This document shows, piece after piece, positions 2,713-30,760 of a DNA stretch of 30,760 nt. Source of the stretch: a virus; the IMG/VR virus record IMGVR_UViG_3300032299_000032, positions 1 to 30,760 of that record; one strand, 5' to 3'. Every line of letters begins with the position of its first letter. The first letter of the stretch is position 1. The notes beneath the pieces were generated by a model. The model was not told the DNA's origin. It made no database searches and was given only the letters and a program-made list of their open reading frames with translations. Made by a program: the position numbers and the translations under genes.

Positions 2713-2740
2713 TTGACGACTTAGTCATCTATGATATGAT
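2713..2740 (+). promoter_or_regulatory. Rightward early promoter with internal palindrome
   Basis: TTGACG (2713-2718) and TATGAT (2735-2740) are 16 bases apart, a good sigma70-type match, 38 bases before the first rightward gene at 2778. A nine-base palindrome GACTTAGTC (2718-2726) sits between the -35 and -10, a typical operator position for the repressor encoded at 2303-2542. An eight-base perfect palindrome CAGTACTG lies further upstream at 2655-2662. Confidence 0.6.
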
Positions 2741-2777
2741 TCGTCCATCAACAACGCAACCCCAAGGAGATTTCCAA

Positions 2778-3050
2778 ATGACAAACGCAACTCAAACGAC
2801 CGCCCAAGAAGAACGCAACATCAATATGTATGGAGTCGCTGATATTGATGCTTATGTGGAATCGGTCAAAGAATCCATCACATACAAATTCACAGGCGCA
2901 AATATGGTGGTAGCTGGCCTGATGTCAGATGCACAAGAATTGATTGCTGGTGGAGCACAAAACAGCAGCCGTCAAACATTGAACATTGCCAAACATATTT
3001 TGTTTTTGATCATGGATGGCGAATTGGTTGGCACAGTAGAGCGCAAATAA
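2778..3050 (+). CDS. First early rightward protein, hypothetical
   Basis: This 90-residue protein starts MTNATQTTAQEERNI. The ATG at 2778 was chosen over an upstream in-frame ATG at 2736 because AAGGAGA lies at 2764-2770 and the upstream ATG falls inside the promoter -10. The middle reads DIDAYVESVKESITYKF and then a helical stretch with LMSDAQELIAGG and RQTLNIAKHILFLIMDGEL; no membrane segment or known domain is evident. It is the first gene behind the early promoters, with the strongest ribosome site in this block, so it is probably made early and well. Such first early genes often act on the host, but that is not shown here. Confidence 0.75.
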   Translation: MTNATQTTAQEERNINMYGVADIDAYVESVKESITYKFTGANMVVAGLMSDAQELIAGGAQNSSRQTLNIAKHILFLIMDGELVGTVERK

Positions 3051-3091
3051 TAACCAGGGGGCTACGGCCCCACCTTAAAGGAGACATCTCA

Positions 3092-3229
3092 ATGAACCAT
3101 ACCCAGCACCCCTACATGGAGCAAGCAAGGCGCCTTGAGCGCCGAGCTGACTCCGCATTAGACTTTGTCGCCGCCATCGCTATTGGCGTTGGCTTTGCCG
3201 TATTGCTCGCCGCATGGTGGTCAGCATGA
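3092..3229 (+). CDS. Small single-span membrane protein
   Basis: This 45-residue protein starts MNHTQHPYMEQARRLERRADS and ends in one hydrophobic helix, FVAAIAIGVGFAVLLAAWW, then SA. The ATG at 3092 follows AAAGGAGA. The arginine-rich N-terminal half next to the helix suggests the N-terminus stays in the cytoplasm. Its stop overlaps the next start as ATGA at 3226-3229, which supports it being a real gene in spite of its size. No family is recognised; small membrane proteins of this kind in early phage operons can affect host membrane functions or superinfection, an inference only. Confidence 0.65.
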   Translation: MNHTQHPYMEQARRLERRADSALDFVAAIAIGVGFAVLLAAWWSA

Positions 3230-3480
3230 CTGATCTGCAGGACTTCTGCCAAGAACCGCGCAGCATGGCCGAGCTGCAGGATGGCGGCTTTGATCGCGTC
3301 AAGGTCTACGCTGCCGTCAAGCGCGGTGACTTAAAGAACGCCAATGCCGTAGACGCATGGGGTCGTAAACAGCGCGGCAAAGGCTTATTTGTGTCCACCA
3401 TCACGCCCATCCCCTACAACGCCACACTGCTGGTCCATGCCTGGTCAACCCCTCAACCCCAAGGAGACATCCATGTCTAA
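3226..3480 (+). CDS. Small protein with HTH-like segment, hypothetical
   Basis: This 84-residue protein starts MTDLQDFCQEPRSMAELQ. The ATG at 3226 overlaps the previous stop as ATGA; an in-frame ATG at 3214 is less likely. The stretch SMAELQDGGFDRVKVYAAV followed by KRGDLKNANAVDAWGRKQRG has the look of a winged-helix DNA-binding unit (helix, turn, helix, then a basic wing), but the match is weak. The C-terminal 30 residues are more hydrophobic and proline-containing. Its last bases carry the ribosome site of the following gene, which it overlaps by eight bases. Confidence 0.6.
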   Translation: MTDLQDFCQEPRSMAELQDGGFDRVKVYAAVKRGDLKNANAVDAWGRKQRGKGLFVSTITPIPYNATLLVHAWSTPQPQGDIHV

Positions 3481-27743: not shown

Positions 27744-28219
27744 TTTTTAAGTCCAATCTTGATTGTTAGCAATGACTTAGGCATCTCTTCGCCCTCGCTC
27801 TCACCCTCTTCATCCACCACCCAAGCAGAACAGGTACGGCTGGACGCGCACTTGAAGTCAAAGATCTCGCAGTAACCTAAGTCACCAGCTTCAATCATCG
27901 CCCAAGGGTCACCCTCTTCGCCAATGCCTTTGGCAATGCACTCAAGCATAGAGTCATCCTGATTGAACGCCGCGCAGTTACCGCAAAGACTCATCTTTGC
28001 GTCTTCTGGCTCGACTTGCCACTCTTGTGCCATCTCCATCCAAAACTGCTTGTTTGGCAGTTGGGGATTCTCAGGGCCATAGTTGGCGCTATTAATCGCC
28101 TTGGCGCGATTCTTCAGATTCAGCGTGATGTCTTGAGTGGCCACTGGACAACTCTTTTCATCCTGATACCCCTCGTCTTGATCCATCACCTGATCCATGA
28201 TGCGTTGCATTGTTGCCAT
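27740..28219 (-). CDS. Cysteine-rich hypothetical protein, possible metal binder
   Basis: This 159-residue protein starts MATMQRIMDQVMDQDEGYQD. In its second half it has CGNCAAFNQDDSMLECI, then GDLGYCEIFDFKCASS and RTCSAWV, a set of six cysteines that could bind a metal ion or iron-sulfur cluster. The CxxC, CxxxxxxC and CxxxxxC pattern is unusual among phage structural-region proteins. The tail is acidic (VDEEGESEGEE). Its ATG shares one base with the previous stop (TAATG). It is in the late operon between TerL and portal; function unknown. Confidence 0.7.
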   Translation of the reverse strand: MATMQRIMDQVMDQDEGYQDEKSCPVATQDITLNLKNRAKAINSANYGPENPQLPNKQFWMEMAQEWQVEPEDAKMSLCGNCAAFNQDDSMLECIAKGIGEEGDPWAMIEAGDLGYCEIFDFKCASSRTCSAWVVDEEGESEGEEMPKSLLTIKIGLKK

Positions 28220-28413
28220 TACTTCATCCCCCTAGATTTCATGTTCTTTGCTGTACGGCTACCGCGCATGGGCATCTTTGCCTCACTCATCGCAATGGCA
28301 ATAGCCTGCTTTGGATTCTTGACTACCTTGCCGCCCTTGCCGCTGTGCAAAGTACCAGACTTGTACTCACCCATCACCTTGCCAACTTTCTTGGCCGCTT
28401 TGGTCATCTTCAT
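28219..28413 (-). CDS. DUF6496-like small basic protein
   Basis: This 64-residue protein starts MKMTKAAKKVGKVMGEYKSG and has TLHSGKGGKVVKNPKQAIAI followed by AMSEAKM. That matches the DUF6496 pattern (KxxxKVGKVMxEYK...GTLHSG...KQAIAIALSEA) as I know it. The start ATG at 28413 follows AAAGGGG. It is short and very basic, one of three such proteins in this stretch (with 27585-27743 and 26132-26422), and may associate with DNA or the virion. The exact role is unknown. Confidence 0.78.
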   Translation of the reverse strand: MKMTKAAKKVGKVMGEYKSGTLHSGKGGKVVKNPKQAIAIAMSEAKMPMRGSRTAKNMKSRGMK

Positions 28414-28440
28414 AAAGTACCCCTTTAAAGAATTAACGAA

Positions 28441-29928
28441 TTATGCAACCCTTGACAGGTTTCTTTTCAACGGCTGATTCCATTTCGTAGAAACAGACGA
28501 TCCATACATACCCACCACCGCATCTGACGCAAACGTCAAACAAAACGAATCAGCGCGATCAGGCGAGGCCAGTCCACGCTTTCTGATCTCATCTTTGCCC
28601 TCAATCTGAATCTTTCCACTAGACGTAAACGAATACCTCACAGTCGCCAGTTCAGCTATTAAGGACTCATCTTTTGGCATCGTACAGTCCCGCGACTCTA
28701 ACCAAGCCTTGGCTTTATGCCATAACTCAGCCTTCAGATTTCGATAGGTGTTACCCATGGCCGGTGACTCAGACACGTTAATGCCACGCGCAGGCAAACC
28801 CAGCTCTTTCAACCGATCCACCACACCAGCACCCAATCCAATGGAATCCACCAGTATTTCCTGTGGGCGCTCGCTCGGCGGCAATATCTCATACTCGGCC
28901 ACCACCGCACCAGTGAGTTGCATCAAGTCCAAATTCTTCCAAGTCTTAATAGACTCAGTAACAGCATTCCCCTTGCGCTTGCACAGCGCCGATCTGTCAG
29001 AGCCAAAACGCGCAACGTCCAAACCCCACACCAAGGGCGCGTGTTGGCTTGGTGCAACGTCACGATTCATCGCCAAGTCCAGTAGCTCCATCGGGATGAC
29101 TGTATCGTCATCACTTCTCGGAAACTCACCCAGTACGCGGATGCGGTAGGCGTTACTCTCCTCGCCGTACCGCGCCTTCATCTCATCAATGTACGCCTCA
29201 CTAACCCTCGGCGAGTCAACGCAACTCACCCTCATCGTGATCCAGTCGCTAGCGAGTCGGTTGTGCGTGTCAAAAAAGAAACCGCTGGAACGTACCGGAT
29301 TGCCAAGCAACAGCGTCACCGCGTTATGTCCAGACATAGAACCTGATGCCGCCTCGAATACCTGTTCGGGTATACCGCTAGCCTCATCCCCCACCAGCAT
29401 CACATGATCTGAGTGGACACCTTGGAGTGCTTCGGGCTGCTCGGCGCGGCTTGTCCTGGCTGAGATAAACGCCTCGTTGTTGGCATCCTTGACCTCAATC
29501 CTATCCTGCTTGACCTCCAACTGGTCAGCCAGCATCGGCGGCAATACCTTTACCCAACGCTTAACTTCAGCAAAGAGCGCGTCATACAACTGGCTGCTAG
29601 TGGGCGCAGTGACCACCACCTTGACAGGAAATCTCAAGAAGAGATACCAGATCATTGCCCACGCGCTTGCTGTCGATTTGCCTACGCCATGTCCTGATCT
29701 AACCGATATGCGTCTATTGCCGGCGGCAATGTGATTGAGGAACTCTATCTGCCAAGGATCAGGCTGCGTGTTGAGCACCTCGCGCACAAACTTCACAGGG
29801 TTGTTTTTGTACAACGTGACGAATTCAATGAATGGGTTATTCGCCACCAAGTCATCAGAAATTTTTTTTGGGACAGGCTTTGGCGCCACAAGGGGTAGGG
29901 GGGTGGGGGTCGAGTTAGGGATGCTCAT
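28441..29928 (-). CDS. terL: Terminase large subunit
   Basis: This 495-residue protein is the packaging motor ATPase and nuclease. Visible motifs are PDPWQ at 57-60 (Q-motif type), Walker A SGHGVGKST at 78-86, Walker B VMLVGDEA at 176-183 with the catalytic Glu182, and a coupling motif LLLGN at 206-210. The C-terminal nuclease has WGLDVARFGSDRS with Asp304, ILVDSIGLGAGV with Asp361, and LASPDRADSF with Asp457 and Asp460. The length is normal. The upstream ribosome site is weak (AGGTA). The gap to the TerS gene (30214) holds a DnaA-box cluster rather than the usual close coupling of the two terminase genes. Confidence 0.95.
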   Translation of the reverse strand: MSIPNSTPTPLPLVAPKPVPKKISDDLVANNPFIEFVTLYKNNPVKFVREVLNTQPDPWQIEFLNHIAAGNRRISVRSGHGVGKSTASAWAMIWYLFLRFPVKVVVTAPTSSQLYDALFAEVKRWVKVLPPMLADQLEVKQDRIEVKDANNEAFISARTSRAEQPEALQGVHSDHVMLVGDEASGIPEQVFEAASGSMSGHNAVTLLLGNPVRSSGFFFDTHNRLASDWITMRVSCVDSPRVSEAYIDEMKARYGEESNAYRIRVLGEFPRSDDDTVIPMELLDLAMNRDVAPSQHAPLVWGLDVARFGSDRSALCKRKGNAVTESIKTWKNLDLMQLTGAVVAEYEILPPSERPQEILVDSIGLGAGVVDRLKELGLPARGINVSESPAMGNTYRNLKAELWHKAKAWLESRDCTMPKDESLIAELATVRYSFTSSGKIQIEGKDEIRKRGLASPDRADSFCLTFASDAVVGMYGSSVSTKWNQPLKRNLSRVA

Positions 29929-30213
29929 GGCGATACCTGTTTGGGTGCTACATCAGCCGCCCCCGCCGCCGCGAGCAAAGGGGGGGCCATCGCGCCGTAG
30001 CCAGCCGCGGCCAGCCGCCGGATGCCAGTAAACGGCTGAAAAGTTATCCACAGGTCGATGCATCGGTAAGACATTGATCTATATGCTTTCTTACATGAGA
30101 CTTACATAATCGGCTTAACACGATGTTCATTATGTTAACTTTATTGTGGATAACTACAGCGATTCTGCTTAATAAACAAGCAGTTTGCACTTGTCCACAG
30201 GCCAGTGTGTACA
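29929..30213. other. terL-terS intergenic stretch: GC-rich then AT-rich, candidate origin or packaging-control region
   Basis: These 285 bases have no convincing gene. The left part (29958-30025) is very GC-rich with repeated AGCCGC/CCGCCG sequence and C5...G7 runs that could pair, but no T run follows in either direction. The right part is AT-rich, with DnaA boxes, a ten-base palindrome CGATGCATCG (30056-30065), a repeated CTTACAT (30090-30096 and 30101-30107) and GTTAAC. The AT-rich 30060-30145 block between boxes resembles a DNA-unwinding element. Confidence 0.5.
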
Positions 30214-30237
30214 TCATGCGCCATTTTCTGTGGATAA
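30044..30237. promoter_or_regulatory. Cluster of four DnaA boxes
   Basis: Three perfect 9-mers TTATCCACA occur at 30044-30052 (plus), 30145-30153 (minus) and 30229-30237 (minus, inside the end of the TerS gene), and a one-mismatch TTGTCCACA at 30191-30199 (plus). Four within 194 bases is far more than chance for a 9-mer. An AT-rich stretch lies between the first two. This could be an origin that recruits host DnaA, or a DnaA-responsive control or packaging site. Confidence 0.6.
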
Positions 30238-30645
30238 GTCATCGATAACCTCGACATGGCGCAACGCGGCCATGCGTAGGTCTTGGATGTTTATGTTAAT
30301 CTGCTGAGCCTTTTGTAAGCCATAAGTCTTCTGATCCCATCTTTCGGCCAGCCACTGCCGCGTACGGATGCGCTGGACATCGCGCTGCGGGTTGCTGTCT
30401 GCCATGCTGTCTGCGATCTTGATAGTGTCACAAGCCATCAAATCGGCGGCACGCGTGCGCGCGCGCGTAATCATAGCACCATGATCGTTTTCCTCAATCC
30501 AATCGTCTAGCGCACGCTTACCTATGCCCAAGTCGATGCATATGTCTGCGATGCTTTTGCCACTCTCTACCATTGCAAAGATCATCTCTTCTGGCATCTC
30601 ATTGAGAAAATCGACATCCTTTCGCCGCTTTGGTGTTCCTGCCAT
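30214..30645 (-). CDS. terS: Terminase small subunit
   Basis: This 143-residue protein starts MAGTPKRRKDVDFLNEMPEE. The first 60 residues make a helix-turn-helix (MIFAMVESGKSIADICIDLG, then IGKRALDDWIEEN) for DNA recognition. A middle helical region (RTRAADLMACDTIKIADSM, RIRTRQWLAERWDQKTYG) is the usual oligomerisation part. It recognises the phage packaging site and feeds DNA to TerL. The start ATG at 30645 follows AAAGGGG. Its C-terminal end carries a DnaA box on the DNA, and its codons 60-66 lie in an 18-base alternating purine-pyrimidine run. Confidence 0.85.
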   Translation of the reverse strand: MAGTPKRRKDVDFLNEMPEEMIFAMVESGKSIADICIDLGIGKRALDDWIEENDHGAMITRARTRAADLMACDTIKIADSMADSNPQRDVQRIRTRQWLAERWDQKTYGLQKAQQININIQDLRMAALRHVEVIDDLSTENGA

Positions 30646-30647
30646 GC

Positions 30648-30737
30648 TTAGAACCCCTTTAAAGCCGTTTTAACGCGCTGGACGATGTCCAGTACCCATT
30701 GACGTACAAATGCCACCATGAGCTTAATTTGAGCCAT
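30648..30737 (-). CDS. 29-residue micro-ORF upstream of terS
   Basis: A 29-residue frame starts MAQIKLMVAFVRQWV from ATG at 30737, with GGAAAGG seven bases before it, and ends two bases before the TerS start. It is an amphipathic or membrane-seeking helix with basic residues (LDIVQRVKTALKGF). The good ribosome site and tight spacing to TerS favour translation, perhaps to couple TerS translation, but 29 residues is short and no family is recognised. Confidence 0.42.
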   Translation of the reverse strand: MAQIKLMVAFVRQWVLDIVQRVKTALKGF

Positions 30738-30760
30738 CTCTGAACCTTTCCGCTTGTTTA

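Follow-up and report, generated by a model that had tools for sequence, protein, structure and literature searches.

In phage P1 the recombination site loxP lies near the packaging site pac, and the plasmid origin, oriR, contains DnaA boxes and makes use of DnaA. Recombination at loxP by Cre is the multimer resolution system of this phage (PMC10999674). Other elements rely on the XerC and XerD proteins (XerCD) of the host: multimers of ColE1 and pSC101 are resolved at cer and psi, elements of about 200 bases with accessory sites (PMC5357621), and the integrative mobile elements exploiting Xer (IMEX), such as CTXphi, VGJphi and the gokushoviruses, carry a dif-like site for host XerCD and no integrase of their own (PMC5357621, PMC2731167, PMC7062461), the filamentous IMEX phages and the gokushoviruses integrating at the host dif via XerCD (PMC7062461, PMC5357621). 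Here we describe a stretch of about 195 bases between the terminase genes terS and terL of an uncultured freshwater phage, IMGVR_UViG_3300032299_000032, of which the window analysed (positions 1 to 30,760) is the whole 30,760-base record. Four DnaA boxes lie in it at fixed distances from one another, together with an IHF-like site and a dif-like site of 28 bases; these are conserved in the clade of the phage, and the unit is kept, inverted, in a second phage lineage. Whether the whole acts as one composite site for host factors we judge to be evenly balanced.

The locus shares with P1 a putative multimer-resolution site and DnaA boxes, here those of a putative origin, but the recombinase would here be the XerCD of the host, no cre-like gene having been seen, and the dif-like site sits inside the DnaA-box cluster. 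The closeness of lox to pac may have its parallel in the closeness of the dif-like site to terS and terL, where pac would be expected from the terminase type. The IMEX phages are filamentous phages or microviruses that integrate at dif; in contrast, this is a tailed double-stranded DNA phage whose site adjoins the terminase genes, and the genomes searched here yielded no integrated relative. Unlike cer and psi, the site has a six-base centre, and it is accompanied by DnaA and IHF sites, not by recognised ArgR, ArcA or PepA sites. With bacterial oriC the element shares DnaA boxes, an IHF-like site and locally unstable DNA, yet it has just four boxes, encloses a dif-like site and belongs to a phage, and no 13-mers or DnaA-trios were recognised in it by eye. 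The open-access literature searched yielded no tailed phage in which a dif-like site adjoins the terminase genes.

The DnaA-box cluster and its conservation

Judged by the DnaA box consensus, 194 bases contain three exact copies of TTATCCACA and one of TTGTCCACA, just as an earlier note on this DNA had described. Box 1 (30229 to 30237, minus strand; TTATCCACA) lies within the C-terminal codons L-S-T of terS, so that the cluster does reach from the intergenic gap into the 3' end of that gene. Box 2 (30191 to 30199, plus strand) is the TTGTCCACA copy, in place of which many relatives have TTATCCACA or TTATGCACA; box 3 (30145 to 30153, minus strand; TTATCCACA) is four bases off the XerD arm of the dif-like site; and box 4 (30044 to 30052, plus strand; TTATCCACA) is on the opposite strand, or reads TTGTCCACA, in some relatives. 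The three exact boxes are the only ones in the record, where 0.25 are expected (mean of 1000 Markov shuffles), and two exact boxes within 194 bases occurred in none of the 1000 shuffles. Boxes with one mismatch show no excess over the whole window (28 matches against 29.2 expected), and the signal is therefore a local cluster of exact boxes. The cluster is real and not a product of chance.

Conservation was followed in a clade sample of 80 loci whose terL is 85 to 98% identical to that of the window, and boxes were counted in the 68 loci with at least 400 bases of upstream sequence. Within these 400 bases 34 relatives have four boxes, 32 have three and two have two, in the comparison of relatives that the earlier note had proposed; outside the 400-base stretch the same loci hold just two boxes in 553,678 bases. 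Spacing is rigid in most relatives, at 38 (or 49), 46 and 101 (or 97) bases. The codons of box 1 point the same way. They were counted in 97 of 123 distinct terS coding sequences, the other 26 being without [DE]LST and mostly from other lineages, with L071 and L083 as members of the wider clade. Leucine is encoded by TTA in 96 of the 97 (131/1287 elsewhere in the same genes), serine by TCC in 95 (54/709 elsewhere) and threonine by ACA in all 97 (117/734 elsewhere), although these codons make up 8 to 16% of their amino acid in the rest of these genes; this bias indicates selection on the DNA as well as on the protein. Because the boxes are exact, rigidly spaced and under codon-level selection in terS, it is very likely that host DnaA binds the predicted boxes, as the earlier note had proposed. 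A contig of 70 kb (L272) carries many TTATCCACA boxes in about 170 bases; it fits the box pattern, but as a different, dense array unlike the element of the window it was rejected as a copy.

The IHF-like site (30067 to 30079, minus strand) fits 12 of the 13 positions of the IHF consensus, WATCAANNNNTTR. Its core, ATCAANNNNTTR, is present in 116 of 117 distinct elements, and the full consensus fits 80 of the 117. Next to it is an 11-base direct repeat, CTTACAtgagaCTTACAt (30090 to 30107, plus strand; TGTAAG twice on the opposite strand), which resembles extra XerD half-sites. That host DnaA, IHF and XerC/XerD would bind their predicted sites in the element is a well supported inference. A search for DNA similar to the element gave no match in phage records, and in plasmids matches at chance level only.

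The dif-like site at the terminase locus

The best conserved motif of the 117 distinct elements was overlooked in the earlier note. It is a 28-base imperfect palindrome between boxes 3 and 4 (30113 to 30140, plus strand), GCTTAACACGA-TGTTCA-TTATGTTAACT, with the 11-6-11 layout of a XerC arm (30113 to 30123), a six-base centre (30124 to 30129) and a XerD arm (30130 to 30140). Across the elements the arms are nearly invariant and the centre is variable: the XerD arm fits TTATGTTAAnn, the inner nine bases of this right arm, TTATGTTAA, hardly change, and variation is found at centre positions 13 to 16 and at a few arm positions, the inner arm bases being conserved and the outer ones variable. In dif sites, likewise, arms of 11 bases for XerC and XerD flank a six-base centre that varies by species, the XerD arm is the best conserved part, and inner arm bases are conserved above outer ones (PMC2731167). 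The site of the window is identical to the dif of Rhodoferax ferrireducens, as printed in that paper, at 22 of 28 positions, and some relatives reach 24 of 28. The ATACGA type of XerC arm is unusual: a sample of 398 genomes from the phylum contained 3 with it. In the family to which one of these 3 belongs it occurs in 20 of 60 genomes, in a single copy in all but one of them, with none for a reversed-pattern control. It is the Rhodoferax entry that links this arm type to the Comamonadaceae. We consider it highly probable that the 28-base motif has a dif-like identity, and recognition of the predicted site by host XerC and XerD is well supported.

Similar sites extend beyond the freshwater clade. 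With a general dif matrix built from 32 proteobacterial dif sites, scores of at least 18 bits were found at 11 of 86 more distant loci of the terL family, compared with 13 of 1720 shuffles. These sites scored 18 to 33 bits. Each of the 11 is located 5' of terL at a distance of no more than about 1 kb, and the majority belong to other types, with GCGYATAA arms. A gene-blind scan of the viral collection for the GCGYATAA-type pattern returned at least 96 loci, at least 21 of them with a terL of this family; among the matches listed, the site was 5' of terL at all 21 loci and no more than 1134 bases away at 20 of them, the exception (L453) having its site 4233 bases from a weakly matching terL. 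Among the same matches a run of seven or more C or G was found within 300 bases at 19 of the 21 terL loci, versus 13 of 75 loci without such a terL. The 21 and the 11 sites, together with those of L113 and L145, form a set of 34 neighbourhoods, which thus includes two sites below the 18-bit line (L113 and L145) and one with a weak terL (L453). Among the matches listed, the full IHF consensus is within 150 bases of 18 of the 34 sites (15 of 642 control pieces), and a C7 or G7 run is within 250 bases of 29 of the 34 (22 of 642 controls). To judge from these sequences, the older and wider unit at the terminase locus combines a dif-like site with a C7 run and in many cases an IHF site, and the DnaA cluster is mainly found in the freshwater clade and in those phages that exchanged modules with it. 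In one of the 34 neighbourhoods (L145, 1900 to 2110) the DNA is rich in repeats, with CTAAGTCGTTG/CAACGACTTA motifs repeated around the weaker dif-like site.

In the window the C7 run (29980 to 29986, minus strand) precedes terL and is the only run of seven C or G. It is conserved in the family (for the clade, 14 of the 80 loci, with less than 420 bases upstream, were dropped from this comparison) and is a candidate landmark for the start of packaging. A hairpin at the run has no support beyond composition (z of -1.1 for the window), so that the claim is limited to the run of C itself; the folded stretches of L118, L126, L129 and L181 did not include the run and have no bearing on it. In nine of the 80 terL loci the sequence reaches at most 38 bases beyond the terL start on its 5' side, and in L023, L030, L034, L042, L043, L048, L052, L058 and L067 the contig starts within about 80 bases of the C-rich start of terL. 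These contig starts might be taken for cos ends; sequencing drop-out at the C-rich terL start is the simpler explanation, and a complete relative, G004, was assembled as a circle.

Replication genes and the question of an origin

The inner architecture of these genomes is best seen in G004, a circle of 33,811 bases once an end repeat of 127 bases is removed, with the order exonuclease, 206-aa protein, primase-helicase (AAA_25), 238-aa protein, terS, element, terL, portal and capsid. A scan of the proteins from a subset of the G004 open reading frames brought up none that was recognised as a polymerase, known initiator, integrase, recombinase or partition protein. In the window the element lies, but for box 1, in a gap of 285 bases between terS (30214 to 30645, minus strand; phrog_1482, with a Pfam Sf6_terminase match in a close relative) and terL (28441 to 29928, minus strand; phrog_5902 / phrog_2). 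In L118 and L119, for example, which are distant relatives, the two genes overlap by a few bases, in line with the earlier remark that terminase subunits are normally adjacent. The protein of 228 to 238 aa encoded between the primase-helicase gene and terS (L092:12596-13309 and homologues) is conserved and accompanies the element; it has no Pfam or PHROG match, and its AlphaFold model is poor, with a predicted local distance difference test score (pLDDT) of 56.9, below use for a fold search. Neither an Rfam search of 28000 to 30760 nor a tRNA search of the whole window gave a match.

A pattern scan for boxes 1 to 3, together with a search for the primase-helicase, revealed the element in a second lineage, with at least nine loci on at least eight contigs (L204 and L313 come from the same one), whose terL is about 31% identical to that of the window. 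All of the element, from box 1 through box 4, occurs there in inverted orientation on the 3' side of terS; this terS has 23% identity to the one in the window, both being phrog_1482. Homology between the lineages starts and stops at the outer boxes, a boundary that marks out the box cluster as a unit of function. Among the matches listed, three second-lineage contigs encode a primase-helicase 88 to 92% identical to that of G004; two further contigs gave a match at 33%, and the rest gave none within the stretch examined. In the three contigs concerned (L190, L204 and L243) a primase-helicase of the window clade's kind is thus combined with a terL at about 31%, with the DnaA/dif element at the joint, and replication and packaging modules have been swapped between phage lineages. 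In L246 and L308 terS and the element are inverted relative to the primase-helicase, and L113, from the lineage of the relative MW202879, has a weaker copy of the element, inverted, directly 3' of terS. As far as these arrangements can tell, the box cluster goes more with replication genes than with any one terminase.

The cluster is best read as an origin, since it can travel with primase-helicase genes and contains both an unstable stretch and an IHF-like site, and we lean slightly towards the DnaA/IHF cluster being the replication origin of the freshwater clade. The AT-rich stretch pointed out in the earlier note holds for the interval between boxes 3 and 4: the matching 100 bases of G004 are the third least stable separate window of that genome, with 57 of 33,811 positions less stable, as would be expected of an opening site. 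In windows of 150 and 190 bases the effect is less marked (845 and 1376 positions less stable). In the freshwater clade, host DnaA would wrap the element and open the unstable stretch between boxes 3 and 4, where the primase-helicase of the phage would be loaded.

For the dif-like site, the proposal is that host XerCD would recombine two copies of it. In P22/Sf6-like phages headful packaging usually starts at terS. As the site lies at terS/terL, the usual headful start for this type of terminase, a copy would be present at either end of the first genome packaged, which would be terminally redundant, and XerCD could then circularise the incoming genome or split multimers into monomers, in the manner of Cre-loxP in P1. 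Host XerCD would be of benefit to any phage that forms circles and multimers without having a recombinase of its own. That XerCD circularises the phage genome or resolves its multimers at this site is a claim for which the arguments on the two sides are, in our estimate, about equal. The link between replication and packaging suggested in the earlier note would hold in part, by way of the dif-like site at terS/terL, which that note had not seen and which is common to relatives without boxes.

Several observations weigh against this composite reading. All of the counts come from related sequences and are thus not independent but inflated by kinship, and box 3 is absent from subgroups such as L035/L049. 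By the general proteobacterial matrix the window site scores 14.9 bits and ranks second in the window, the top score of 18.0, which 7 of 300 shuffles reached, being a chance match in coding sequence. DnaA boxes are near 2 of the 34 dif-like sites of relatives, among the matches listed, and origin and Xer functions may therefore be separable. MW202879 has neither the element nor a dif-like site at terS; its record annotates a gamma-delta resolvase (966 to 1634), and it has DnaA boxes 3' of repA, an arrangement consistent both with a requirement for some means of resolution and with boxes being tied to replication genes. The boxes in question, two in 2737 to 3400 of this genome (L084, MW202879.1), stand amid repeated GAGGATAC/GGTATCTCCGA-like motifs, and the region looks like an iteron-plus-DnaA origin. 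Finally, no skew inflection was found at the site, the extremes of the detrended cumulative skew falling elsewhere, so that the skew check proposed in the earlier note lends the origin no support. Most genes run one way and cumulative skew tracks gene direction, which makes GC skew uninformative here, and many origins of small replicons are without a skew inflection.

Alternative explanations and implications

The dif-like site might instead be an attP, with lysogeny through XerCD integration at the host dif and the boxes regulating or merely accompanying it. IMEX precedents exist (PMC7062461, PMC5357621), neither an integrase nor a partition gene was seen among the G004 proteins scanned, and in 81 of 117 elements the XerC-side TGT of the centre is shared with the bacterial TGTATA. 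However, the centre varies among the phages and differs from TGTATA, and integration would place an oriC-like cluster, awkwardly, at the terminus of the host. Nor did a close prophage come to light: genome contigs gave six loci in metagenome-assembled genomes, none titled Comamonadaceae; 299 genomes of the dif-matched family gave four weak terL matches, in short surrounding loci without a dif-like site; and six bacterial dif loci had no match to the phage queries. This argues against frequent integration, though freshwater hosts are thinly sampled, and we consider the attP explanation unlikely.

The earlier note had also suggested titration, and a datA-like site would bind host DnaA with IHF and lower the free or ATP-bound DnaA in the infected cell without being an origin. 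Four strong boxes and an IHF-like site would suit such a role, and copy number would presumably increase in infection. Pure titration, however, requires neither fixed spacing nor a Xer site and is poorly supported: the element accompanies the primase-helicase across lineages and does not stand alone, and within it lie a dif-like site and DNA of low local stability. We regard this role as improbable. It is very improbable that the DnaA and IHF sites form an accessory complex that directs Xer recombination, as ArgR and PepA do at cer, and are not an origin; we know of no case of DnaA in such an accessory role. The boxes do flank the dif-like site closely, box 3 being four bases from the XerD arm, and accessory proteins act at cer and psi (PMC5357621), but boxes are absent at most dif-like sites of relatives, and the element goes with replication genes. 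Least probable of all is a TerS recognition site (pac or cos) whose likeness to DnaA boxes is secondary, since despite the position 3' of terS, the Sf6-type TerS and the IHF site and C7 run nearby in the family, the 9-mers are exact DnaA boxes, one element in opposite orientations serves lineages whose TerS is 23% identical, and relatives with the same TerS family are without boxes. The neighbourhood of the C7 run and the dif-like site could be a pac site even if the 195-base box element is not.

A broader scenario, which we put forward tentatively and with more doubt than belief, is that a family of tailed phages without integrases keeps a host-type dif at the terminase locus as a 'Cre-lox' supplied by the host, and that the freshwater clade wrapped this site in a DnaA/IHF origin. 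Replication, XerCD action and packaging would then start within about 350 bases, and everything but TerS/TerL and the helicase would be supplied by the host. If true, tailed phages without an integrase would use the chromosome-dimer resolution system of their hosts at the packaging locus, and the arm type of dif would be a sequence clue to the hosts of uncultured freshwater phages, pointing to Comamonadaceae-like bacteria. The locus would also offer a compact test case for the coupling of origin firing, monomerisation and packaging.
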